From contig NZ_JAJSAQ010000004.1 of the NCBI RefSeq assembly GCF_021729075.1, positions 186,001 through 250,000 on the forward strand: DNA of 64,000 bases, read 5' to 3'. Under the pieces are notes generated by a model. That model worked only from the letters and a program-made list of their open reading frames with translations. It did not search any database and was not told the origin of the DNA. This DNA is from Microbulbifer guangxiensis. GTDB taxonomy: Bacteria; Pseudomonadota; Gammaproteobacteria; Pseudomonadales; Cellvibrionaceae. Shown piece by piece: positions 5,325 through 20,801 of this stretch. A program made the position numbers and the translations under genes. The number at the start of each line of letters is the position of its first letter. Positions within the stretch are counted from its first letter, which is position 1.

Positions 5325-6257
5325 ATGCGCCTGATCCTGAGCCGCAAGGGCTTCGATTCCTCCGCCGGTGGCTGTCCGAGTCCGATCTTCCCCGACGGGT
5401 CTCTCTACCCACTGCCGATACCCGATACAAAATCCTCGATCACTTTCGCAGAGATCGGACACGGGGATATCGATATCGGGGAGCTGGTGGAAGACCTTAC
5501 CCGCGGACGTCATACCGGCCGGGGCACAGCACATCTGGATCCGGATATGTACCCGGATACATTGCCCCGCTCCCGGGGCTGGCGACCACTGCTGGGACAG
5601 ACAGGTGCCGCCCAGGGACACTTGCGTCGTCAGGGCGTCCGGCCCGGGGATCTGTTTCTTTTTTTCGGCCTGTTCCGACCGGTTGAGCGGACGAATGGCA
5701 AATGGCAGTTCGTACGGCAGGCGCCCGCGCAACACATCTTATGGGGCTGGCTGGCGATCGGTGATGTCTGCCATGTCGACGACCTGAGAGACTCGGAGCT
5801 CGGCTGGGCGCGCTACCACCCTCATTTCCAGATCGGTCCGGACTCCGCCAACACACTTTATCTTGCGGCAGACAAACTCGAGCTACCCGAAACCAACGCC
5901 CCTGTTGCAGGTGCCGGGGTTTTTCCACAGCTCGCTGAACCGCTGGTACTGACCTGCCCCGACTCACCACGGCCCTCCCTGTGGCGACTGCCCAACTTTT
6001 TCTACCCGGGACCGGATCGTACACCACTGAGTTACCACCACAAGGCGGAACGCTGGTGGCGAGATGCGCATGACCGCCAGCCGGGATACTGCCATTTACA
6101 GAGTGCTGCGCGAGGACAGGAGTTTGTGCTCGACATGACCCAGTACCCGCAATGCACCGGGTGGATCGCTGAACTGATTCACCAATATGGTTCAGAGAGC
6201 CTGGACCCGGCACCCCAGCCTTCCTGCGCCTGGCCGCTCTGGCCATCGTGTAAATAA
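5325..6257 (+). CDS. Nmad3-family protein (nucleotide modification associated domain 3)
   Basis: A 310-residue protein without a signal peptide. The N-terminus (LSRKGFDSSAGG then PSPIFPDG) and the internal HLDPDMY, AQGHLRRQGV and GDLFLFFGLFR segments match my recollection of the Nmad3 family, which was defined by its association with modified-base biosynthesis in phages and bacteria; its reaction is not established. The start is well supported by aaggag 4 bases before the ATG. It directly follows the secreted glycosidase gene (8-base gap), although the two products should sit in different compartments. No methyltransferase, TET/JBP-like or phage gene is nearby. The family call is from memory of the motif. 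Confidence 0.72.
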   Translation: MRLILSRKGFDSSAGGCPSPIFPDGSLYPLPIPDTKSSITFAEIGHGDIDIGELVEDLTRGRHTGRGTAHLDPDMYPDTLPRSRGWRPLLGQTGAAQGHLRRQGVRPGDLFLFFGLFRPVERTNGKWQFVRQAPAQHILWGWLAIGDVCHVDDLRDSELGWARYHPHFQIGPDSANTLYLAADKLELPETNAPVAGAGVFPQLAEPLVLTCPDSPRPSLWRLPNFFYPGPDRTPLSYHHKAERWWRDAHDRQPGYCHLQSAARGQEFVLDMTQYPQCTGWIAELIHQYGSESLDPAPQPSCAWPLWPSCK

Positions 6258-6376: not shown

Positions 6377-7972
6377 ATGGATGAGAGAAATAATCCGCTC
6401 TGCCGCTACATGCCATTGCTGTTACTGATTTTCTCCGTACTCCTGGGAGCCTGCACCGCAGACAGACAGGAGATCTCCGCCAACCAGTCACAGGTGGTAG
6501 CGAGGATTGGTGAACAGGCCATTACCCTTGCCGAAGTCGACCAGAAAATTCAGCTGCAGCGACACGACCTGGCCCTGACCGAATATCAGCTGCGCTTCAA
6601 TACACTGAAGTCGATGGTGGATGCAGTCACTCCGCCGGCTGCAAGTGGTGCGGCAGCACCCACCGTTACCTGGCTTCTCCCCCACCCCCGCCCGCCACGA
6701 CTGGAGATTGATACCCGTCAGCGCGCCATGCGGGGCAATCCCGAAGCGCCAGTCACGCTCGCCGTTTTCTGCTCGTATCAATCGGTACACTGTGCTGCCA
6801 CCAATCTGGTGGTGCGTCAGTTGCTCGATCGCTACGCAGGCTGGATTTCCGTGGCACCGTTTGATTTTCCCATGCACTTTCACCGTCAGGGCGTACAGGC
6901 CGCCAACGCCGTGCACTGCGCCAGCCAACAGGGAACTCCCTGGGCTTATGCGGACGGACTCTATAGCCACGCAAAAGCGCTGGATAAAGATGTCTATGGC
7001 CAGCTGGCATCCCAGCTCGGCTTCACGCAGGACGCGTTTGATCGCTGTCAGCTTGAGGCCGACCACAATGAACAGATTGCAGAAGATACCGCATTCGCTC
7101 GCCAACTGGGGCTGCAGAGCGTTCCCGTTGTATTTATCAATGGCCTGTACACCAGGGGCCCAAAAACAGCAGCACACTATGGCATGTGGATTGACGAGGA
7201 GCTCGAGCGTCTCGGCCACAATCCCTCCACGCCCCATCCGGAGGCTGCCCGCTGGCGACTGTCGACAGACCGGGTCCCCGAGACCGACCTACCGCTGCAG
7301 CTGACTGGAACCAGTGTCTCCTCCCGCGCGCAGCAGTCATCGGCGCTTATTCGCATCCGCGAAGCATCGGCCAATCGATTTTCACCCGGCGACACGTTGA
7401 TGCGCGACGTCACCCTGAAGGCGATACACGAGCGCCATGTCATCCTGACGGTCAACGGGCGGCTCGAGCGACTGAGCCTCAGAGGCGAAGATGACGACTT
7501 TGTGCGTGTCCCTAAAACCGGTTCGACCCAGCGCGACGAGGAAACGCTGCGCCGCATCGAGCAACCGGAGGGGGAGACCCGCAAGCTGCTCGCGCCCTCC
7601 GGGGTGCTGCCTCTGGGGCAGGAGTGGCTACAGAAGCAACTACAGGACCGGGAGGCGCTGGAGAAGAAGTTCGTCGAAGCCGAGCACGTCGTGGATGGCT
7701 ACAACCTGTTGCGGCTCGAGGGTATCGAGAATAATGAGTTTTTCACGGCGCTGGGCTTCGAGGAGGGAGACGTAGTAGTCCGGGTAAACGATACCTGGGT
7801 CCATAGTGGACAGAATCAGCTCTGGGATGCGCTGACCAGCGGTGAAATGGTGGATGTCACTTTCATGCGTAACGGGCTACCGCAGCGCGTGCAGTATGTT
7901 GTGGAAGATCGAGGCTATTTCGAGGACCAGGGGGACCAGCAGAACTCCGGGGATGGTGATTCACCCGAGTAG
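6377..7972 (+). CDS. Lipoprotein with DsbA-like fold fused to GspC-like and PDZ regions
   Basis: A 531-residue predicted lipoprotein (LLGAC, Cys26). In order: a short SurA/parvulin-N-like segment (ARIGEQAITLAEVDQ, about 42-56); a DsbA-like thioredoxin fold (about 115-280) with the cis-proline loop SVPVVF (Pro250); a region like the GspC homology region of type II secretion (about 305-370: LQLTGT, SALIRI, FSPGDTL, LTVNGRLERLSL); and a PDZ-like domain (about 440-510: NNEFFTALGFEEGDVVVRVND). The redox site is altered: where DsbA-like proteins read CxxC this one reads SVHC (Ser136, Cys139), with an extra Cys132. No gsp genes are nearby. The role is unknown; a periplasmic scaffold or holdase is possible. 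Confidence 0.7.
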   Translation: MDERNNPLCRYMPLLLLIFSVLLGACTADRQEISANQSQVVARIGEQAITLAEVDQKIQLQRHDLALTEYQLRFNTLKSMVDAVTPPAASGAAAPTVTWLLPHPRPPRLEIDTRQRAMRGNPEAPVTLAVFCSYQSVHCAATNLVVRQLLDRYAGWISVAPFDFPMHFHRQGVQAANAVHCASQQGTPWAYADGLYSHAKALDKDVYGQLASQLGFTQDAFDRCQLEADHNEQIAEDTAFARQLGLQSVPVVFINGLYTRGPKTAAHYGMWIDEELERLGHNPSTPHPEAARWRLSTDRVPETDLPLQLTGTSVSSRAQQSSALIRIREASANRFSPGDTLMRDVTLKAIHERHVILTVNGRLERLSLRGEDDDFVRVPKTGSTQRDEETLRRIEQPEGETRKLLAPSGVLPLGQEWLQKQLQDREALEKKFVEAEHVVDGYNLLRLEGIENNEFFTALGFEEGDVVVRVNDTWVHSGQNQLWDALTSGEMVDVTFMRNGLPQRVQYVVEDRGYFEDQGDQQNSGDGDSPE

Positions 7973-8038: not shown

Positions 8039-8055
8039 GGGCCCCGATGGGGCCC
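8039..8055. terminator. Bidirectional hairpin between convergent genes
   Basis: The palindrome gggccccgatggggccc has a 6-7 bp GC stem. It lies between the convergent lipoprotein (ends 7972) and esterase (ends 8073) genes and could stop both transcripts. No long T-run is present. Confidence 0.5.
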
Positions 8056-8072: not shown

Positions 8073-9002
8073 TTACTTGTCTGGGTTGCCGTTCCACATC
8101 AGGTCAGCGACGGTATTCTGGCCACGCACGCTGGGATGGAAGCAGTCTCCACCATCGATATCATCCTTACCGAACTTGAAGGTACCCACGTTCGCCTGGT
8201 CCAGGCCGGAGTACTCCGCTACTACCTCAACGCCATTGACGCCATTGTACGCAGCGGCCTCCTGCTGGAGCACTTCATTGTAAAGCCGCTGTGCAGCCTC
8301 GATACCGGCAGAGCGTGTTGCAAAGGATTCGCCATTGAGCGTGCCTCCATTGGTGGCGATACGACAGATACCGAAGGTGGACCATGCGCTCTCACAGTTC
8401 ACCCGCCAGTTACCACTCTGCTTGGCAAGACCCGCCGCGCGCAGGTCCTGCACCCGGGGTACGGAACCCAGAACCACAGTGGATCCTGCGGGCAGGCCGC
8501 TGACCAGTTTGTCCAGGCCGGCCTGTACTGCGCCGCGCCACTCGCTCTCGGTGTAGAGGGGGTCCGAGCAGTTGGCGGGGTCGACACAGTCGCGATTGCA
8601 GATGTCGTTACCTCCGAGGACCACCTCTACATGATCGGCGACCGTCGTTTCGGTCAGTATGCGATCAGCCTGAACACTGAAGCTGTCACCACCGCCGCGC
8701 ATCTCTGCTCCGGAGCGCGCAGCGTTCTTGTTGGCGGCCACATTGGGATCAATCGCTTTGTACTTGTCATGAACGCTGTTGACGCTGTTATCCCAGCCAT
8801 CAAACCAGCTGTGTTCCGGCTGGTCTCCACCCAGCAGACAGAAGAAGCCGCCGGTGAAGAAGGTGTTGCCGGTACAGTCCGCCGCAAACCCCATGGTGAT
8901 GCTGTCACCAGCTGCAGTGCCTTTCGCCGGTGCAGCGGAGGTGTTGAGTGATACAAGCGCGGAAGTAATGGTAAGTAATACGAACAGACTTGTTTTCTGC
9001 AT
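8073..9002 (-). CDS. Secreted SGNH/GDSL-family hydrolase
   Basis: A 309-residue exported esterase or lipase-like enzyme. The N-terminus is a signal peptide (MQKTSLFVLLTITSALVS, ending near TSAAPA). Block I has the nucleophile in AAGDSITMGF (Ser34), block III is LGGND, and block V is DCFHPS with the Asp/His pair. Several cysteines suggest disulfides in the exported protein. ATG 9002 was chosen because ggag lies 9 bases upstream on the minus strand; an upstream in-frame ATG at 9020 lacks such a site. The gene appears monocistronic. The substrate may be an acetylated polysaccharide or a lipid; nothing in the context decides. Confidence 0.85.
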   Translation of the reverse strand: MQKTSLFVLLTITSALVSLNTSAAPAKGTAAGDSITMGFAADCTGNTFFTGGFFCLLGGDQPEHSWFDGWDNSVNSVHDKYKAIDPNVAANKNAARSGAEMRGGGDSFSVQADRILTETTVADHVEVVLGGNDICNRDCVDPANCSDPLYTESEWRGAVQAGLDKLVSGLPAGSTVVLGSVPRVQDLRAAGLAKQSGNWRVNCESAWSTFGICRIATNGGTLNGESFATRSAGIEAAQRLYNEVLQQEAAAYNGVNGVEVVAEYSGLDQANVGTFKFGKDDIDGGDCFHPSVRGQNTVADLMWNGNPDK

Positions 9003-9405
9003 GATGCTTTCTCCGATCATCGATTCTTATGGGTTATTTTTACCAACGCGGTGAACGGAGAAATATTAGGCTTTTGTCGGCACCAAAATCAGAACAAAAT
9101 ACCTGACCAATAAGTCAAGAATGTTATTTGCGAATAGACTCGCAGCCCTGTCGTCAGAAACATTTGCCTGCGCAATAAAGAAAATAGTTTATCCGCCAAG
9201 GCAGGTTCCGGCCGTGCAGAGCGCCAATGAATCCAGCGTCAAAATGGTTCATTCCAGCTGATGCAGCTATACCGGGACGAGCCCATCGTCACCACAGAAA
9301 GAAGACCAAATAACCACCCCGGCAAGAGGGAAGACGCAAGTTCGTCCATGTGGCCGCACGCCACCGGCAAGCCCTGTTGCCGGTCGGCCCGGCAACGATG
9401 ACGGA
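9003..9405. other. Intergenic region between the esterase and transglycosylase genes
   Basis: About 400 bases. The AT-richer part next to 9003 should hold the esterase promoter (minus strand). The only structure I see is the hairpin at 9363-9384 that follows the transglycosylase gene. No credible open frame. Confidence 0.4.
9363..9384 (-). terminator. Hairpin after the MltF-like gene
   Basis: Perfect 8-bp stem accggcaa/ttgccggt with a 6-base loop, 21 bases past the stop codon on the minus strand. There is no T-run, so it could equally be an RNA-stability element. Confidence 0.45.
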
Positions 9406-11610
9406 TCAGAGAGACTGATTACCCAACTGCTCTTTACGCGCAACCGAGAGGTAACCCAGGTAGCGATCGCGGATCTCGCGCACATAGTTGACCGGTTCGC
9501 GGCCGCGCACATAACCAAATCGCGCCTCACGGTAATACTCCGGTTTGGAGAGCAGCAGCATCGCTTCCTCTACATGCCCGAACCAGCGATCGGGATCCTT
9601 ACCCAGACGCTGGGCGAGCTTCCGTGCGTCGCGCACATGGCCGTGGCCGGCGTTATAGGCCGCGAGGGTAAAATAAATCCGCTGGTCAAAGTCGAGACGG
9701 CGGGGGAAGCGATCTTCCAGCCACTCCAGGTAGGAGATTGCCGCGCGAATATTATTTTCCGGTTGGTAGAGATTGCTGATACCCAGCTCCTCTGCGGTAC
9801 GGGGCAGGACCTGCATCAGCCCCCGGGCACCGGCAAAGGAACGGGCCTGCGGATCGAACTGGCTCTCCTGGTACATCTGCGAGATCACCATGCGCCAGTC
9901 CCGATCCACGGCAGAGGCATACTCGCGCACGATAGGGTCATAGGGCGACAGGCGCTTGGCGCTGCGGAGACGCTCTTCAAGGGGAGTCTGCATGCGCTTA
10001 CTCTCCCTGAAATACTTGTTGTAGGTAACGTTGAAGAAAAGCCCACGATACTCGGCGTTGAGGAACCCGTTCAGTTTCTCCAGCAGTTGCGCCTGGTCGC
10101 TGCGAACTGCCCAGGCGATATCCTGCTCGCCAGGCAACCGCCCGACCACAGCGAAATCGTCGCGATAGGTCCGCTCGATGTCGACCAGATGGGAGTCGGC
10201 GACGGTGAAGGGATAATCGCCCCGCGCCACGGCATCAATCAGGTATTCGGTCGTCGCGCCCTTGACGGGGACAAGCTCGAGGGGATTCTGTTGGCTCTGC
10301 GCCAGCACCTGCAGATTATCGCGATAGCTGGTCAGCGGATTCACGGCAACCCGGGCCCCGGCGAGCAATTCAGCGGCGGGGAGAACTGTGGCACCAGAGC
10401 GCGGTTCAGCGGCAATGATCTGTTCCTCAACCTGCATATAGGGACGGGTGAATACGAGCCCCTGCTCCTTGCGAGTCTCCGTCACCGTCAGGGATGCGGC
10501 AATCATATCGCCGAGCCCGGCGTTCAGCGCTTCTGCCAGGTCCACGTCCGGACCGGGCACCACCATACTGAGACGCAGGCCCTGTTGCTCGGCGAAGTGT
10601 TTCAGCAGGTCGTAGTCGAAGCCCATCAACTCACCCTTCCACATGAAGTAGGAGGCGGGGTGGTTTCGGGTCAGCACACGCAGCGTGCGACTTTCCTCTA
10701 TATGGCTCCAGTCGCGCAAGGGACGTTCCCGCAGCTGCTCGGCAATCAGGTGTTCCTCGGTCAGGAATTCATTCAACGCCTGTTCAAGGTTTGGGCTCTC
10801 CTTTCGCACGGCCCACGCGATGGCTCGCTGGGTATTCAGTGTCTCGCTGACCCTGAGCTGCGGATAATACGGTAGCAGAACATCAGCCAGGTTACTGTCC
10901 ACCACAGTCGCAGGGTACTTCCCGGATGCCACTGCACTCAGCAGGCGATCGTGATCCAGCGGCTCGTCCAGATAACGCACCTCGAAGCGCCCCTTCCCCT
11001 CCACATCCTGTGCGGATTCATGCTCATGTCCAGCCGCCGTCAGAGTCTGCGCAAAAGCGCTGCCCCGACGCACAGCTACCAGCAATGGTTTTGTCTCATC
11101 CCGCTCTGGTGCGGCGTCAGCACGGGTGACCAATAATTCACGCACATACTGCAGGGGACGGGTAAAAGCGACCTCTTCGGCACGGGCCCTGGTACTGGTG
11201 AAGTTAATAGCAATAACGTCACCCCGCCCGTCTTTCAGAGCTGGGACAAGATCGTCAAAACCCTGCACATAGACCCACTGCGGCTGCAGGCCACGGCTGC
11301 GGGCAAATTTCTCGGCCAGCTCACGCCATGTGCTGCTGGGCAAGCCGTCACGCGGCAGGGACAGGTCAGTCATGCCAACAGGGGCCAGCAGCCGCAATAC
11401 GCCACGCTCACGAATGGCACTCCAGTCACCGCGCTCGATATAGTTTTTAAAAGTCGCCGGATCAGCCTCCGGTTCTCCCCGATCAGGGCCTGCAACGGCC
11501 TGTTCGTCATGCTCGACCTGCCCGACATCGCTGTTGTCGCCCTCACAGGCAGCGAGGGCGAGAGCGAAGCTCAACAGGATCGTATACAGAAGATTTTTGG
11601 GGTCAGTCAC
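9406..11610 (-). CDS. MltF-like lytic transglycosylase lipoprotein with two solute-binding domains
   Basis: A 734-residue lipoprotein (ALAAC, Cys22) predicted to cleave peptidoglycan by lytic transglycosylation at the envelope. Two family-3 solute-binding domains come first (about 65-290 and 305-535), each with the DLVPALKDGRGDVIA/DLAEALNAGLGDMIA-type segment. A C-terminal SLT domain follows (about 570-700) with the catalytic Glu in YQESQFDP (Glu582), then ARGLMQVLP and AAYNAGHG. Known MltF proteins are about 500 residues with one binding domain, so this one carries an extra copy. The start is GTG, supported by the immediate lipoprotein signal. It stands alone. Confidence 0.88.
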   Translation of the reverse strand: MTDPKNLLYTILLSFALALAACEGDNSDVGQVEHDEQAVAGPDRGEPEADPATFKNYIERGDWSAIRERGVLRLLAPVGMTDLSLPRDGLPSSTWRELAEKFARSRGLQPQWVYVQGFDDLVPALKDGRGDVIAINFTSTRARAEEVAFTRPLQYVRELLVTRADAAPERDETKPLLVAVRRGSAFAQTLTAAGHEHESAQDVEGKGRFEVRYLDEPLDHDRLLSAVASGKYPATVVDSNLADVLLPYYPQLRVSETLNTQRAIAWAVRKESPNLEQALNEFLTEEHLIAEQLRERPLRDWSHIEESRTLRVLTRNHPASYFMWKGELMGFDYDLLKHFAEQQGLRLSMVVPGPDVDLAEALNAGLGDMIAASLTVTETRKEQGLVFTRPYMQVEEQIIAAEPRSGATVLPAAELLAGARVAVNPLTSYRDNLQVLAQSQQNPLELVPVKGATTEYLIDAVARGDYPFTVADSHLVDIERTYRDDFAVVGRLPGEQDIAWAVRSDQAQLLEKLNGFLNAEYRGLFFNVTYNKYFRESKRMQTPLEERLRSAKRLSPYDPIVREYASAVDRDWRMVISQMYQESQFDPQARSFAGARGLMQVLPRTAEELGISNLYQPENNIRAAISYLEWLEDRFPRRLDFDQRIYFTLAAYNAGHGHVRDARKLAQRLGKDPDRWFGHVEEAMLLLSKPEYYREARFGYVRGREPVNYVREIRDRYLGYLSVARKEQLGNQSL

Positions 11611-14305: not shown

Positions 14306-15835
14306 TCAGCCTTCCTTCTGGGCCAATGTGGAGATCTTCTTTTGCTCCACTTCACCACGCATTTCCGCCAGCATGTCCTTGATCTGCCGATACTGTTCCT
14401 CATCATTGAGCTCCATCAGCAGAGGCTGGGCAACCTCAGCGAAGTACTCGGCATCCTTTTTCTCATAGAGTTCCATTGCCAGCCACTGGGCAATATGAAC
14501 CTGGCGTGGCGCACGCAGGTAGGCCTGCTCCAGCATTTCCAGGTATTTTTCCCGCGGGTAGTCGAGCATTTCCATGCTCATGGCGAGGCCATACCAGTGC
14601 GAAGCGGTTTCCTCATCGTTGTTGACCAGGTGTACGAACTTGTCCCGGGCTTTTTTCAACTGATCGCGGTCCCGGTCTGCACCCGGCGTCATTATCTGGC
14701 GGTTCAATAGCAGCCACGCATCGGCCTTCTGGAACCAGAACTTGTTGCGATCCTGCATCGGTATCGTGGACAGCAGCTCCTCGGCAAAGTCGAAATCCCC
14801 TACCTGGATGGCCGCTTCCGCATAACTGACAGTCAGTTCAGGGCTCTCGAGCCCTTCCGCCTGGGCGTATTGAAGCAGTGCTCCCAGCCCTTGCGGGTTG
14901 TAGCCCGACATCACCAGGAAGCGTGCCACCTCGGTCACCGCATTGCGGGACGACAGTTGCTGCAACCTGGGTTTTGCCTCCTCGAAATCCGCCGGTATGA
15001 CCCCACCAGCCATCTCGAAGCTGCCATCCTGGAACAGTGCGTTGTAACGATTTTCCACTTGATCCAGGGTCACACCGAAGGCCTTCTCCAGCGCCTGCAC
15101 GGGGTCATCGCCACGGTTGTAGGCCTTCACGTACTCCCTGAACTGCTCCACCTTGCCACTTTCCATCAGCAGCCAGTGGGTGAGCATCCAGCCACTGGCA
15201 TAGACCCGGCCCTTCTCTTCATCCGGTGTGGTGACCACCGTCGCCCGCAGCAACTCCTCCAGCGGCATCGGCGCGGTATAGATCAGGGTCAGGGCCCGCT
15301 CCTGGGGAATGGCGCCCAGCTGGTAACTTCCCGGGGAGGGGAAGGTCATGGTCGACATGAACTCGGCAAATCCCTCACTGTACCAGTAGGGGTAGTGCAC
15401 GGTGTTGCCGTTGTAACTCAGGTAGTGGGTGTACTCGTGAAACAGAAATTCACGGGCCTTCAGCTGGCGCTTGCCACTGCGACCATCCAGGTTCACCAGC
15501 GCATAGCTGCCCTCAGCAGTGGTATCGAACAAGCCATTGGTGATTTCCGCCAGCTCTGGTCCCACCAGTCCGGCATAGGTGGTGCGGTCAGCCGCCGCAT
15601 AGATGGTGAGTTTCTTGCCTCCGTCCTCTGCACCAAGCAGCTTCAGGGCAACGGCGCGGTAGCGCTCCAGGTCGCGGGCAAGGGTATCGATGGCTTCCGG
15701 ATCACCATTGGTGACGATGCGAAAGTTCTCGGTGTCCACCTGATACCACGCATCGTCAGCCAGCTCCCGGGCACTGCAGGCAGAGAGCAAAAAGGCAGAA
15801 CAAATTACCAACAGTGCGAGCGTTCGAGAAACCAT
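14306..15835 (-). CDS. Peptidase-MA-like (DUF1570-type) zinc metalloprotease lipoprotein
   Basis: A 509-residue lipoprotein (FLLSAC). The N-terminal third carries a gluzincin signature: HEYTH (in REFLFHEYTHYLSYN) followed about 20 residues later by the third ligand region WYSEGFAEFMST. The remainder (about 230-500) is alpha-helical with TPR-like repeats (ESPELTVSYAEAAIQVGDFDFAEELL, then HWYGLAMSMEMLDYPREKYLEMLEQA). It is predicted to act on an unknown protein substrate at the envelope. It is divergent from the M1 aminopeptidase gene across about 260 bases, which may hold promoters for both, and a strong terminator follows it. Confidence 0.75.
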   Translation of the reverse strand: MVSRTLALLVICSAFLLSACSARELADDAWYQVDTENFRIVTNGDPEAIDTLARDLERYRAVALKLLGAEDGGKKLTIYAAADRTTYAGLVGPELAEITNGLFDTTAEGSYALVNLDGRSGKRQLKAREFLFHEYTHYLSYNGNTVHYPYWYSEGFAEFMSTMTFPSPGSYQLGAIPQERALTLIYTAPMPLEELLRATVVTTPDEEKGRVYASGWMLTHWLLMESGKVEQFREYVKAYNRGDDPVQALEKAFGVTLDQVENRYNALFQDGSFEMAGGVIPADFEEAKPRLQQLSSRNAVTEVARFLVMSGYNPQGLGALLQYAQAEGLESPELTVSYAEAAIQVGDFDFAEELLSTIPMQDRNKFWFQKADAWLLLNRQIMTPGADRDRDQLKKARDKFVHLVNNDEETASHWYGLAMSMEMLDYPREKYLEMLEQAYLRAPRQVHIAQWLAMELYEKKDAEYFAEVAQPLLMELNDEEQYRQIKDMLAEMRGEVEQKKISTLAQKEG

Positions 15836-16098
15836 ATTCTGACCACCAGGGTTTGTTTCTTCTTAGCCGTCCCTGGCTGCAATGAAGCCCACACATTACA
15901 GGTTTTAATTGATCAAAAAAAGAACAATTTTAGACCAGAACTGCATATCCAACTGACTTTTCCTGACTGCTGCCCGCTTTCGGGTTCTGCCTTTTCCTGG
16001 GTGGATCCGGCGCCACTGCCGGCTCCCACCGGCAAGAAGTTGACCGGGCAGTTAGAATCAATTGTGTTGTTGATGAAGTAAGCAGTAAAGAAAGCCCC

Positions 16099-18855
16099 AT
16101 GATGTACTCCGCCCTGCGCAGCCTGCTGGCGCTGTCGATATTGGCCCTGCTCGGCTGCAGTCCCGCCGACGAAGCGGGCACCCCCTCCGGAGAAGAGCAG
16201 GTGCAGGTACCCACACCGGCACCGCAGCAGGCCCAGCCCGAAGCCCCCGCCAGCCCGCCGGCCATCCCCGAGGAGCCCCCCGCTGGCCGGCTACCGGAAG
16301 GGATCACTCCAGCCGCCTATCGCCTGGACCTGCTGATCGACCCACGCCAGGATACGTTCTCCGGCACTGTCGAAATCGATATCGAGTTGTCGTCCGATGC
16401 CGGCCATATCTGGCTGCACGGCAAGAACCTAGAGGTCGCCTCGGCCACTGCGATCGTGGATGACGGCAAGACAGTGGAAGCCCGGTATGAAGAGGTACTG
16501 GACAGCGGCGTCGCCAAAATCAGCTTTGCCGAACCGCTGCCCCGGGGGAAATTTACCCTGCGCATGACTTACAGCGCACCGTTCGATCGCAACCTGGCGG
16601 GACTGTTCAAGGTTGAGGAACAGGGCAATGCCTATGCGCTGGCCAAGTCCGAGTCGATCCAGGCGCGCAAATACCTGCCGGGCTTCGACGAGCCCGGTTT
16701 CAAGGCCCCCTTCGATATCAGCCTGACCGTGCCGGCCGGCTATGCCGCCATCAGCAATGGCCCCGAACTGAAGCGTGAGCCCGCCGGGGAGGGGCTGGAA
16801 AAAGTCACCTTCGCCACCACGCGCCCGACGCCCACCTACCTGCTGTCCCTGTCAGTGGGGCCTTTCGACATGGTGGAGCGGCCGGCCATCCCCCCCAGCC
16901 AGTACCGTACCAGGCCCATTCCGCTGCGCGGTTTTGCCCGCCAGGGGCGGGGCCAGGATATGCGCTATATCCTGGACATCACCCCGCGCATGGTGGAAAT
17001 TTTCGAGACCGAGCTGAGGCGCCCCTATCCGTTCGAAAAGCTGGATATCATCGCCGCTCCCCAGTGGCCCAGTGGCGCCACGGAACTCTCAGCTGCCATC
17101 ACCTACCGGGAGCAGCGTATCCTGGTGGGCGACAACCCGGCGCCGGGTGCGCGCCTGGCCCTGCTGCAGATCCACGCCCACGAGATTGCCCATATGTGGT
17201 TTGGCAACCTGGTCACCCCACCCTGGTGGGATGACCTGTGGCTGAAAGAGGGTTTCTCCACCTGGGGCACACCACTGGCCCTGACCATCCTCGAGCCGGA
17301 CGGCGGCCACGAGCTCAACGCCGCCGAGGAAGCCATCAGCGCCATGCAGCTGGACTCCCTCGCCAGCACCCGGGCGATCCGCGAGCCGATCGAGGACAAC
17401 AACGAGATCCGCAACGCCTACGACGCCATTACCTATGACAAGAGTCTCGGCGTCATCCACATGGTGGACCAGTATTTTCGTCCAGAGAAATTCCGCCCGG
17501 CCCTCGGCCGCTATATCGAGGCTTTTGCCGATGGCGTGGCCAGCTCCGAAGATTTCTACCGGGTGATCGGCGAGGAAACCAATACCCCGGAACTTACCGA
17601 GACGTTCCGCAGCTTCGTCGAGCAAAAAGGAGTGCCGCTTCTGAATGTCACCCTCGAGTGCGGCAACGGCGCCGCCCAGGTCAATATCCAGCAGCAGCGC
17701 TACAAACCGCTGGGCTCGCCCATCGAGAGTATCGACACCCGATGGACCATTCCCGTGTGCCTGCGCAGCGACGCCGGCCATCAGTGCGTAATGATGGATG
17801 AGGCAGAGCAGACACTGGCCATCAGCGGGGGCATCTGTCCCGAGTGGTTGCTGCCGAACGCCAAGGGCAGCGGTTACTACCGCTGGACGCTGCCGCCACA
17901 ACAGTGGCAGGCGCTGCTGGACAACTTCCCCGAACTGACGCCCACGGAAGCCCTGTCCGTGATCGACAGTGCCTTCGCTGCTTTCGAGGCCGGCACCTTG
18001 CCGGAAAGCACCCTGATCGCCGTGGTGCGCAAGTCCGCTGCTTCGCAGCGTCGTCAGGTTGTCACGGCTCCACTGGGCTACCTGGAAAAATACCGCCGCA
18101 ACTATCTGGGTGGGGAGGTCGGTGATGAGCGATGGGAAGCCTTCCTGGGCTTCCTGCAATCGCTCTACCAGCCGGTGCTGGATCGTACCGCCGGTAGCAG
18201 TGACAACGACGACAAGCTGCTGCACAGTGAGCTGCAGGGCTTTATGGCGCTGGTGGCCGGTGACCCTGCGATCAGGCAAACCCTGGCCGACAAGGCCATC
18301 GCTTTCACCGGCTTCAAGGGTGAGCCGGATGCGGCGGCACTGGACTCCGACCTCTACGAAGCGGCTCTCACCGTCGCCGTGCAGGATGCAGGCCCCGATT
18401 TCCTGCCGCACCTGGTGAAGTTCCGCAGGGAGGTGGACGATCCACGCTTCGAGAATGCCAGTGCCAATGCACTCGGTGGCAGCAATGACCCCGGGCAGTT
18501 GGACGCCATTCACCAGCTGGCACTGGGGGACAACATCGGCCCACGTGAAGCCTTCGGGCTGCTGCAGAATGCGCTGGCCCAGCCCGCAGTCAGGGACCGA
18601 CACTGGCAATGGCTGCAGGCGAACTTCTCCGCAGTGGTGAAAAAAATCCCCGCCCAGTGGCGGCGCCGTACCCCCAGCTTGGCCAGCAGCTTCTGTGAGC
18701 CGGAAAAGCTCACTCAGTTGCAAAAGCTATTTGAGCAACATGGCAAACTGACCCCCGGCTATCAGCGGAGACTGGATCAGACCGGTGAGCAGATACAGCT
18801 GTGCATCGCTCAGAATGAGCAGGGTAAGGCGCTGGTCAATGCGCTGATGGAATGA
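16099..18855 (+). CDS. M1-family aminopeptidase (aminopeptidase N-like) lipoprotein
   Basis: A 918-residue lipoprotein (LALLGC) with a proline/glutamine-rich linker (about 30-70) before the M1 fold. The zinc site is intact: HEIAH at 361-365 and the third ligand in LWLKEGF (Glu384). The substrate-binding motif usually written GAMEN reads GATEL (326-330), keeping the Glu but losing Met and Asn. The C-terminal half (about 590-918) is the helical ERAP1/ERAP2-like domain. It probably trims N-terminal residues from peptides at the envelope. The operon is monocistronic and is followed by the 95-bp repeat array. Confidence 0.87.
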   Translation: MMYSALRSLLALSILALLGCSPADEAGTPSGEEQVQVPTPAPQQAQPEAPASPPAIPEEPPAGRLPEGITPAAYRLDLLIDPRQDTFSGTVEIDIELSSDAGHIWLHGKNLEVASATAIVDDGKTVEARYEEVLDSGVAKISFAEPLPRGKFTLRMTYSAPFDRNLAGLFKVEEQGNAYALAKSESIQARKYLPGFDEPGFKAPFDISLTVPAGYAAISNGPELKREPAGEGLEKVTFATTRPTPTYLLSLSVGPFDMVERPAIPPSQYRTRPIPLRGFARQGRGQDMRYILDITPRMVEIFETELRRPYPFEKLDIIAAPQWPSGATELSAAITYREQRILVGDNPAPGARLALLQIHAHEIAHMWFGNLVTPPWWDDLWLKEGFSTWGTPLALTILEPDGGHELNAAEEAISAMQLDSLASTRAIREPIEDNNEIRNAYDAITYDKSLGVIHMVDQYFRPEKFRPALGRYIEAFADGVASSEDFYRVIGEETNTPELTETFRSFVEQKGVPLLNVTLECGNGAAQVNIQQQRYKPLGSPIESIDTRWTIPVCLRSDAGHQCVMMDEAEQTLAISGGICPEWLLPNAKGSGYYRWTLPPQQWQALLDNFPELTPTEALSVIDSAFAAFEAGTLPESTLIAVVRKSAASQRRQVVTAPLGYLEKYRRNYLGGEVGDERWEAFLGFLQSLYQPVLDRTAGSSDNDDKLLHSELQGFMALVAGDPAIRQTLADKAIAFTGFKGEPDAAALDSDLYEAALTVAVQDAGPDFLPHLVKFRREVDDPRFENASANALGGSNDPGQLDAIHQLALGDNIGPREAFGLLQNALAQPAVRDRHWQWLQANFSAVVKKIPAQWRRRTPSLASSFCEPEKLTQLQKLFEQHGKLTPGYQRRLDQTGEQIQLCIAQNEQGKALVNALME

Positions 18856-18865
18856 AAAAGTGTAC

Positions 18866-19312
18866 GCTGGATGCCGGCGTTTGCCGGCATGACGCGTTTT
18901 ATTCCGCTATCCCGAGCTTGATCCGGGATCCAGCCGACGCCCGGAGGCCACGATCGGGAAACTGGATACCGGCCTGCGCCGGCATGACGAGCTTTATTCC
19001 GTCATCCCGGACTTGATCCGGGATCCAGCCGACGCCCAGAGGTCACGATCGGGAAACTGGATACCGGCCTGCGCCGGTATGACGAGCTTTATTCCGTCAT
19101 TCCGGACTTGATCCGGGATCCAGTCGACGCCCAGGGGCCACGATCGGAAAACTGGATACCGGCCTGCGCCGGCATGACGAGCTTTATTCCGTCATCCCGG
19201 ACTTGATCCGGGATCCAGCCGACGCCCGGAGATCACGATCGGGAAACTGGATACCGGGCTGCACCGGTATGACGAGCTTTATTCCGTCATCCCGGACTTG
19301 ATCCGGGATCCA
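18866..19312. repeat. Tandem array of 95-bp palindromic units (4.7 copies)
   Basis: Units start at 18866, 18961, 19056, 19151 and 19246, exactly 95 bases apart, the last ending at 19312 after 67 bases. Each holds two stem-loops: ataccggc-ctgc-gccggtat and atcccgga-cttga-tccgggat. Unit 1 has paired changes that keep the first stem (atgccggc/gccggcat). The core gatccgggatcca is a dispersed palindromic motif I know from many proteobacterial genomes. The array fills the gap between two convergent genes and ends 13 bases before the sulfotransferase stop codon. It could serve as a bidirectional terminator. Confidence 0.9.
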
Positions 19313-19325
19313 CTCTCCGGCGCTC

Positions 19326-20801
19326 TCAGTCCACTTCAATGCCACCGGCGCGCAGGGCCTCTGCCAGCGGCGCCAGCTGCTCCTCGTAATTGCGCCAGTG
19401 AGCGACCGCACGCTTGTATAGCGGTTGTCGCACCTGGGCAGAACTCGCAGTGGCGACGGCACTGCGGTTCTTGTGAAACTCCCCGCAGCTGGCCTCCCAC
19501 TCCATACCCGCCGTGTTCACCAGGGCTCGGGCCTCCGGATCGAACTCCTGCACCAGTTTTTCATAGGACTGGAGACGGACCCGATCCCCAAGCACTTCCT
19601 GCCAGTGCCGCTTGAGACGGTCATAGGCGATGTAGTAGGCCGCCAGGTCTTCAAAGCTGTAGGAGAAGGGGTAACCCATCTTGAACAGGGTCTTGTACAT
19701 GGCAAAGCAGGCATCCAGTGGATGCCGCTCCATCCAGATCATACTGGCACCGGGCATTGCCCGGGCAATGAGGCCGGCGTAGAGAAAATTCAGTGGCGTT
19801 TTGTCGATATGCTTCCCGGCACTGGAATCAAAGTTCGCCAGACGCCCGAGGTAATGATCTGCGATGGCTTCAGGCGCCCAGCGGGCTGTCTCCGCCACCA
19901 GTTGCTCCTTGGGCAAACTGCGCCCGGCCATCACCATCAGCGACATGGGCAGGTCGGTAATTTCACCAAAACTGTCGCACCGGCTGTGGCTGGAGAGAAT
20001 ACGGTCGACCAGGGTGGTGCCCGAGCGTGGCAGGCCGAAAATAAATACCGCCTCACGGCCCCTTTCCGGATCCGCATTGCTGGGCCCAACATTGCGGTGG
20101 TGTTCAGCTATCAACGCCAGCGTCTGCTGGTCGGATTCAACGCGGTATTTCAGCATGGCACGCCGGCCATCAGCACCTGCCTGGAAATGGAGGAATGCCT
20201 GCTGAAATTCACCGATATCTTCGAATTCCTTGCCCATTGCATAATGCAGTTTCAGCCGCTCCATCGCCGGCAGGCGCTGGTTGCGCAGGGTCTCCTGCAG
20301 GCGCCCGATATGGTTGTTATCCACTGTCACCCGGCGTAACCCGCTGAGGATAAGCTGGGCCTGTGCATCTGCCGGGTCTTCACTTACAAGGTCTTCCAGT
20401 ACCTGTTCCGCTTCTGCCAGTTCACCGGTGGCCAACAGGTTGACACCCAGGTTGTAGCGAGCATCGCGGTGGCCATTCACCGCCAGTGACCGATAGATCT
20501 GTACTGCTTCCACCTGCCGCTGGACCAGCGCATAAAGTTCGGCACACAGCCCCAGATGACAGTCATCTCCGGCGGAAAGCTGCAGATAGTGATCGAGGAG
20601 GCGGTTGGCCTCACGATGCTCCCCCACATAGATCAGAGTACGGATCGCGAGCGGGAGCAGGTCAGGATGATCCGGAACCTCACGGATTGCCCGTCCCATG
20701 ATTGCGGCAGCATCGCTGAAGCGGCCCCGCTTCAGCGCATCGTTGGCACTGTGAATGAATTCCGCGGGCTGTTTGTTTTTATTGCTCTGTTCCGCAAGCA
20801 T
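19326..20801 (-). CDS. TPR-containing sulfotransferase
   Basis: A 491-residue cytosolic protein. Residues about 10-240 are TPR-like helices (ANDALKRGRFSDAAAIMGRAI, then GELAEAEQVLEDLVSEDP). The C-terminal half is a PAPS-dependent sulfotransferase with the 5'-phosphosulfate loop FGLPRSGTT (255-263) and a 3'-phosphate-binding region near MIWMERHPLDACFAMYK. It should transfer sulfate from PAPS to an acceptor that cannot be inferred. It lies downstream of a TonB-dependent receptor gene on the same strand, a pairing I have seen in other proteobacteria. A strong terminator between them means it needs its own promoter or depends on read-through. Confidence 0.85.
   Translation of the reverse strand: MLAEQSNKNKQPAEFIHSANDALKRGRFSDAAAIMGRAIREVPDHPDLLPLAIRTLIYVGEHREANRLLDHYLQLSAGDDCHLGLCAELYALVQRQVEAVQIYRSLAVNGHRDARYNLGVNLLATGELAEAEQVLEDLVSEDPADAQAQLILSGLRRVTVDNNHIGRLQETLRNQRLPAMERLKLHYAMGKEFEDIGEFQQAFLHFQAGADGRRAMLKYRVESDQQTLALIAEHHRNVGPSNADPERGREAVFIFGLPRSGTTLVDRILSSHSRCDSFGEITDLPMSLMVMAGRSLPKEQLVAETARWAPEAIADHYLGRLANFDSSAGKHIDKTPLNFLYAGLIARAMPGASMIWMERHPLDACFAMYKTLFKMGYPFSYSFEDLAAYYIAYDRLKRHWQEVLGDRVRLQSYEKLVQEFDPEARALVNTAGMEWEASCGEFHKNRSAVATASSAQVRQPLYKRAVAHWRNYEEQLAPLAEALRAGGIEVD

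Follow-up and report, generated by a model that had tools for sequence, protein, structure and literature searches.

In the window, the 64,000-nucleotide stretch of DNA of the marine bacterium Microbulbifer guangxiensis analysed here, the gene at 6377..7972 on the plus strand encodes a 531-residue lipoprotein in which a SurA-N-like segment and a DsbA-like domain precede a GspC homology region (HR) and a PDZ domain. In the genomes surveyed this gene was found only where one particular SGNH hydrolase is also encoded, and its product is therefore probably the private folding and export helper of that enzyme. The reading that we favour, with somewhat better than even confidence, is of a membrane-anchored periplasmic helper dedicated to the hydrolase, which would fill a role like that of Lif or CpaB with a new build and would serve as a type II secretion system (T2SS) chaperone and adaptor. 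Sequence comparison establishes the domain build, the constant pair, a fixed exchange of cysteines, the short GspC of Microbulbifer and a single gsp-linked locus. The hydrolase is likely a client of the lipoprotein, which likely aids its folding; the PDZ domain possibly binds the hydrolase, and the T2SS may export it. The first-pass annotation of this DNA had proposed a secretion or folding adaptor that combines a DsbA-like domain with a GspC module. The domain matches support that proposal well, but its 'redox-dead' label does not sit easily with the alignments described below, and the partner had escaped it.

Domain organization of the lipoprotein

The open reading frame lies where the first-pass annotation had placed it. 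The signal peptide runs to the lipobox cysteine, Cys26 (LGAC, 6377..6454), with Thr as residue +2. The N-terminal segment that follows (residues 36-115, 6482..6721) had been called SurA-N-like, a likeness that holds only weakly: the SurA_N_3 match, to residues 22-66, has an E value of 0.0063 and is under the Pfam cut-off, so that membership of the SurA family is not claimed. Residues 116-274 (6722..7198) form a DsbA-like thioredoxin domain, matched over its whole length by Thioredoxin_4 (E 8.7e-19, 68.7 bits against a curated cut-off of 23.2) and, also above cut-off, by DSBA (E 3.5e-8), with profile matches to solved DsbA-like proteins such as 3f4s, 7unn and 4pwp. The SVPV motif of the annotation is present, with Pro250 at the predicted cis-Pro position, and C181 and C224 make up a second cysteine pair. 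An NCBIfam family of thioredoxin-like (seleno)lipoproteins (Rcas_1661, NF041057) matches residues 16-265 with an E value of 3.7e-17, far under its cut-off. Among the nine Pfam matches of the lipoprotein up to E 10, the lipase chaperone family was not found.

The HR occupies residues 296-368 (7262..7480), where the T2SSC match (E 3.9e-15) scores 56.4 bits against a curated cut-off of 27 and falls on the stretch, residues 300-370, in which the annotation had expected one. The GspC-type PDZ domain lies at residues 441-509 (7697..7903). PDZ_2 by itself matches weakly (E 0.014) and, like T2SSB (E 0.0024), is under the Pfam cut-off, but the PDZ-like end noted earlier is borne out by comparison with GspC. 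When residues 285-515 were compared with a profile of six GspC proteins from other families, picked for their long, PDZ-bearing tails, 205 columns running through both HR and PDZ were aligned (probability 98.9%, E 1.3e-17), and in hhalign the PDZ part alone (residues 385-515) matched PDZ-bearing GspC with a probability of 83.9% and an E value of 7.8e-6. This collinearity indicates that HR and PDZ together, as one unit, make the C-terminal half of the lipoprotein a homologue of the same part of GspC. The NCBIfam GspC models also match, GspC_delta at residues 289-509 (E 5.4e-17) and TIGR01713 at residues 298-505 (E 3.5e-9); because their scores (62.5 and 36.6 bits) are below the equivalog cut-offs of 150 and 101.6, respectively, we regard the lipoprotein as homologous to GspC and not as a GspC.

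Conservation was followed in two alignments, A1, with 24 lipoproteins including that of the window, and A3, a more divergent set of 15 that has 10 rows in common with A1 and includes members down to 24% identity. Cys26, which the annotation had recognised as a lipobox cysteine, is present in 23 of the 24 A1 rows, and in those rows residue +2 is never Asp. We read the anchor as a probable lipoprotein signal peptide and not as an inner-membrane helix with a cytoplasmic N-terminus. The cysteine of the lipobox is missing from two otherwise conserved members (L016:1498-3051 and L130:10541-12061, the latter from genome G501). In E. coli, Asp at position +2 of a lipoprotein means retention in the inner membrane, and other residues send the protein to the outer membrane. 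By this rule the A1 lipoproteins would be placed in the outer membrane, while inner-membrane retention would be predicted for the members in L051 (9902-11275) and L131 (6946-8487, from genome G110), the only two of the 14 lipobox-bearing A3 rows with Asp at +2. In neither of the two can an HR be recognised. With two cases, this gives no more than a hint that HR and placement in the outer membrane may go together.

An altered active site in the DsbA-like domain

The active-site motif of the DsbA-like domain reads FCSYQSVHC (6767..6793), with C132, S136 and C139. SVHC thus replaces CxxC and an additional cysteine precedes it, as the annotation had seen, and both features are constant: C132, S136, H138, C139 and P250 are present in all 24 A1 rows, and C132, S136, C139, C181, C224 and P250 are present in all rows of both alignments (24/24 and 15/15). 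Free-standing DsbA-like homologues are organized differently. Forty such loci were tried, of which 36 were readable at the motif and four were gapped (two pairs among the 40 represent the same place, one pair readable and one gapped). Cysteine is found at both 136 and 139 (CxxC) in 36/36 readable loci, and Cys132 in none of the 36. The C181/C224 pair, in contrast, is present in 35 of the 36, and is therefore old; it is also aligned in 3f4s.

According to these alignments, the nucleophilic cysteine is exchanged for one four residues earlier, giving a C-x6-C arrangement that has been kept in the lipoprotein family. Since the loss of cysteine at 136 and its gain at 132 are both fixed in A1 and A3, selection fits the data better than decay, and we reject a decayed, redox-dead domain as the simplest reading; the description of the domain as redox-dead is doubtful for the same reason. 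By thioredoxin geometry, residue 132 presumably takes the place that Trp28 has in E. coli thioredoxin, close to the active site, which makes a bond between C132 and C139 plausible. Among the matches listed in searches of the open-licence literature by title and abstract start, we found no description of a C-x6-C relocated cysteine pair in a thioredoxin domain. A fixed relocation of this kind is a natural experiment on the DsbA fold without CxxC.

The partner hydrolase

The first-pass annotation missed the constant partner and probable client of the lipoprotein. On the minus strand at 8073..9020, facing the lipoprotein gene, lies a gene for an exported SGNH/GDSL hydrolase of 315 residues, with eight cysteines in the mature part and a Lipase_GDSL match above cut-off (E 1.2e-6); no NCBIfam family was found for it at E up to 1. 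The two genes converge on a gap of 100 bases that contains a G+C-rich hairpin (8039..8055, from sequence and RNA folding), possibly a terminator common to both. The hydrolase appears from its sequence to carry a signal peptide and has no visible anchor. The catalytic residues S40, G104, N138, D292 and H295 (Ser, Gly, Asn and Asp-x-x-His) are present in 26/26 hydrolases. All eight mature cysteines are found in 25 of these; the exception, in genome G214, has six, and the two missing from it, C145 and C151, are lost jointly, as the partners of one disulfide would be. The hydrolases of G214 and G501 have an N-terminal extension before the hydrolase domain, and that of G501 matches the InlB B-repeat domain.

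The hydrolase shares a GND-x-CN motif with acyloxyacyl hydrolase (5w7a, 5w7d), to which its similarity is marginal (E 0.31 for the single sequence, 0.0068 for the profile). Acyloxyacyl hydrolase is an enzyme that deacylates lipopolysaccharide. A lipid substrate for the partner hydrolase is conceivable on sequence grounds. As for the other neighbours in the window, a gene with a strong match to Nmad3 (nucleotide modification associated domain) is directly upstream of the lipoprotein gene (5325-6257), and one with SBP_bac_3 and SLT transglycosylase domains (MltF-like, 9406-11610) adjoins the hydrolase gene; each is found beside the pair in a single one of 21 flanked loci, L036.

Co-occurrence and distribution of the pair

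The two genes were searched for separately in three overlapping samples of genomes, in which a lipoprotein was counted as full-length when its match began in the DsbA-like part and reached the PDZ, or when reading through the open reading frame showed this extent (G110 and G214). Full-length lipoproteins were found in 24 of 58 genomes of relatives, in 11 of 390 genomes of the order and in 2 of 369 genomes of the class. The hydrolase, searched alone with thresholds of 1e-10 (relatives and order) and 1e-20 (class), was found in exactly the same 24, 11 and 2 genomes, so that at the thresholds used neither gene was found without the other. Partial matches to the lipoprotein are more common. Some match is present in 42 of the 58 relatives, those beyond the 24 being matches to GspC, to the thioredoxin region or to PDZ. 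The profile matched at 1e-20 in 35 of the 390 genomes of the order and in 24 of the 369 of the class; 24 and 22 of these matches, respectively, are in or near the thioredoxin region only, as classed by the extent of the match. In a survey of the phylum with the hydrolase as the only query, the enzyme was found in 2 of 279 genomes, both of them Microbulbifer carriers. That the pair is borne on a plasmid is rejected, as the hydrolase has no match in the plasmid collection; the lipoprotein matches 12 records there, none over more than 80% of the query, and the ten listed match only in its thioredoxin region.

In named sequence records, a search with the single lipoprotein gave 18 pattern-matching stretches, none of which was confirmed. 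A search based on the alignment gave 17 loci, 16 labelled Microbulbifer and one an Oleiphilus-labelled MAG (L051), and although these were found by the lipoprotein alone the hydrolase is present in 17/17. With four further loci that were fetched in the knowledge that both genes are present (L130-L133), they make up the 21 flanked loci; several have a flank of less than 5 kb on one side, and some come from genomes already counted among the relatives. In 20 of the 21 the two genes are convergent, and there they are therefore not one operon. Their matches are at most 252 bases apart in 19 loci, of which 18 are facing and one, L051, is in tandem; in G042 one open reading frame lies between the two genes, and in G110 they are about 6 kb apart. 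The surroundings vary: when ten other genes of the window were compared with the 21 loci, eight recurred in L036 and two nowhere, and outside L036 the only recurring neighbour is a dehydrogenase, 28-30% identical, in L044 and L045.

The pair spans five families (by the codes of the survey) of two orders. A GspC-GspD tree covers those 28 of the 39 Microbulbifer that gave the best matches; 20 of them have the pair and 8 do not. The presence of the pair changes four times on this tree, and two of these changes are forced by well-supported branches. With so few changes independent events are few, and the pairing, though striking, gives limited support; hypergeometric probabilities of co-occurrence ignore kinship and are not to be taken at face value.

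Type II secretion in the carrier genomes

A survey of genomes for gspD alongside the lipoprotein, which the first-pass annotation had proposed as a check, gave GspD above cut-off, together with a separate GspC match, in 28/28 surveyed carriers. gspC is also present in all 15 searched Microbulbifer that lack the pair, so the presence of a T2SS does not predict the pair. In the 28 Microbulbifer genomes of the tree only 59-65 residues follow the HR of GspC, with a charged, helix-like end (28/28 examined; only the protein of the window genome was scanned against Pfam), and these tails are therefore too short for a PDZ domain. In G042 and G110, GspC continues for 129-135 residues after the HR with PDZ-like sequence. 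A third T2SSC-like match was seen in G214 (G214:C22:26433-26594), in an open frame of 270 residues, in a genome with two GspD matches above cut-off.

The gsp operon of the window genome is on contig C1 (L134) and the lipoprotein gene is outside it. The annotation's statement that no gsp gene is adjacent holds for the window, but it does not extend to every carrier. In G501, a distant carrier, the lipoprotein gene is immediately preceded on its own strand by a T2SSB gene (E 4.7e-13) and one for a GspA-like ATPase (GspA C39-like, E 5.5e-6), and about 5.5 kb further lies an Xps-like gspE-to-gspD cluster, a second T2SS. GspE and GspD of this cluster are above their cut-offs. Matches below cut-off were obtained for F, H, I, J and K, for an XpsN/GspC-like protein and for a PilM-like protein in the position of GspL, and a frame tested in the position of gspG gave no match. 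G501 is the only one of the 21 flanked loci in which gsp genes were seen beside the pair, the other flanks being annotated in part. Between gspD and gspA of the second cluster (L130, G501:C6:152500-172400, at 15807-19793) there is also a gene for a repeat-rich, exported-looking protein of 1328 residues, part of it masked, which may be another T2SS substrate.

HR docking and alternative explanations

The HR may dock on the GspD secretin, but there is evidence against this. All 24 Microbulbifer carriers searched have a lipoprotein whose HR is above the Pfam cut-off, but the HR is under the cut-off in the lipoproteins of G042, G214 and G501, is not recognised in G110 and is absent in L051. The pair is retained in all of these, and so are the DsbA-like part and the PDZ end. 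As the pair persists without a recognisable HR, docking through the HR cannot be essential to the partnership. Moreover, extracts of PMC3169554 describe Ala133 of ETEC GspC as a buried contact to GspD, with Ala, Leu, Val or Met at this position across GspC, while at the corresponding position of the lipoprotein, which we mapped through alignments with GspC, Ser is found in 23 of the 24 A1 rows and Asn in one. Because some members have no HR that can be recognised and the contact residue is changed, we do not accept the Pfam match as proof of HR docking. The same two observations would be expected if the lipoprotein were a folding partner without a part in secretion. The pair would then act within the periplasm or on the inner face of the outer membrane; the lipoprotein would fold the hydrolase or tether it, and its HR-PDZ, a borrowed binding module, would have lost contact with GspD. 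The rarity of gsp genes beside the pair, seen in G501 only among partly annotated flanks, points in the same direction. We consider this account rather unlikely: it leaves unexplained why the HR scores above cut-off in every Microbulbifer carrier searched, why the gene is linked to gspA-gspB in G501, why GspC and GspD accompany the pair in every surveyed carrier, and why the hydrolase carries a signal peptide but no anchor that can be seen.

The lipoprotein might also be a general T2SS accessory, an extra GspC anchored in the outer membrane that supplies a PDZ in trans to the PDZ-less GspC for several substrates, the hydrolase among them. This is suggested by the short GspC tails of 28/28 Microbulbifer together with the HR-PDZ homology of the lipoprotein, and it is compatible with extracts of PMC12369372, according to which the PDZ of GspC serves only some substrates in V. 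cholerae and D. dadantii. We nevertheless judge it improbable, because the distribution of the lipoprotein matches that of the hydrolase exactly and not that of the T2SS, found also in the 15 Microbulbifer without the pair, and because G042 and G110 carry the lipoprotein though their own GspC tails are PDZ-like. There is, finally, a very slight chance that the two genes are neighbours through common inheritance or joint transfer only and have no functional link. The small number of gains and losses within the genus, four with two of them forced, and the blindness of the co-occurrence probabilities to kinship leave some room for this. But mere inheritance does not readily explain why the genes stay together across five families of two orders, whether facing, in tandem or 6 kb apart, when the other genes of the window are almost never shared, and why neither gene is found without the other at the thresholds used.

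A proposed role for the lipoprotein

If, as we prefer to think, the lipoprotein is a helper dedicated to the hydrolase, the enzyme would be exported by Sec and would have to form about four disulfides in the periplasm, where the SurA-N-like and DsbA-like domains could hold it as it folds. A structural C132-C139 disulfide, or an isomerase-like single cysteine at C139, would replace CxxC chemistry. The GspC-type PDZ, which the GspC of Microbulbifer lacks, would then recognise the hydrolase, and the HR would bring the complex to GspD of the resident T2SS, which would export the enzyme. A dedicated adaptor is reasonable because, according to extracts of PMC12369372, PMC4713064 and PMC13381987, the PDZ of GspC serves only some substrates, with that of EpsC fully required by a single known substrate, and T2SS chaperones are encoded beside their effectors. 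More tentatively, and with clearly less than even confidence, we suggest that chaperone, disulfide handling and docking are united in one lipid-anchored chain, which would carry a second, outer-membrane-anchored HR-PDZ and supply a substrate-recognising PDZ in trans for a GspC without one. The cysteine-rich hydrolase would in this way be folded, and delivered to the secretin, by a helper of its own.

The way in which the type II machinery selects folded substrates is a standing question in the field. If the proposal is true, a folding domain fused to the substrate- and secretin-binding modules of the machine, with one client, would be a compact system that can be dissected part by part. Among the matches listed in searches of the open-licence literature by title and abstract start (topics GspC-DsbA, SGNH-T2SS and Microbulbifer), we found no paper describing the fusion or the gene pair.

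Comparison with known systems

With GspC, EpsC and OutC the lipoprotein shares an HR followed by a PDZ, collinear over the 205 profile columns. It differs from them in having a lipobox instead of an inner-membrane helix, in the SurA-N-like and DsbA-like domains that it adds in front, in the Ser or Asn that replaces the hydrophobic GspD contact (ETEC Ala133), and in that, in the window genome, it lies outside the gsp operon and is additional to the real GspC. The DsbA-like proteins of the Thioredoxin_4 group (3f4s, 7unn, 4pwp) share with it, by sequence profile, the thioredoxin domain with cis-Pro, and the second cysteine pair is aligned in 3f4s and present in 35 of the 36 readable free-standing relatives. 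Unlike the DsbA oxidoreductases, which have CxxC, the lipoprotein has C-x6-C with Ser at the position of the nucleophile, and it is fused to an HR-PDZ. The Rcas_1661 family shares the N-terminal segment and the thioredoxin domain over residues 16-265, though by a match far under cut-off. For the partner, the invariant SGNH catalytic residues are those of the SGNH/GDSL hydrolases, while the likeness to acyloxyacyl hydrolase is marginal only.

In its setting the lipoprotein resembles the Lif, LipB and LipH foldases and CpaB of Acinetobacter: like them it is membrane-anchored, is predicted to be periplasmic, is encoded beside one exported hydrolase and is found only with it. The build is different, with a lipid anchor in place of an N-terminal transmembrane helix, DsbA-like and GspC HR-PDZ domains in place of the Lif or SRPBCC folds, and a client of the SGNH class. 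Extracts of PMC4713064 describe T2SS chaperones as encoded adjacent to their cognate effector, co-regulated with it, and composed of an N-terminal transmembrane domain and a periplasmic C-terminal part, and extracts of PMC4713064 and PMC13381987 add that these chaperones are needed for the secretion of the effector beside which they are encoded. The lipoprotein has the adjacency, to a neighbour that would be the effector, and has a lipid anchor, equivalent in function, where a literal transmembrane domain is described. It is a protein with some but not all of the literal features of the T2SS chaperone class, and it can be classed neither as a GspC nor as a canonical DsbA.
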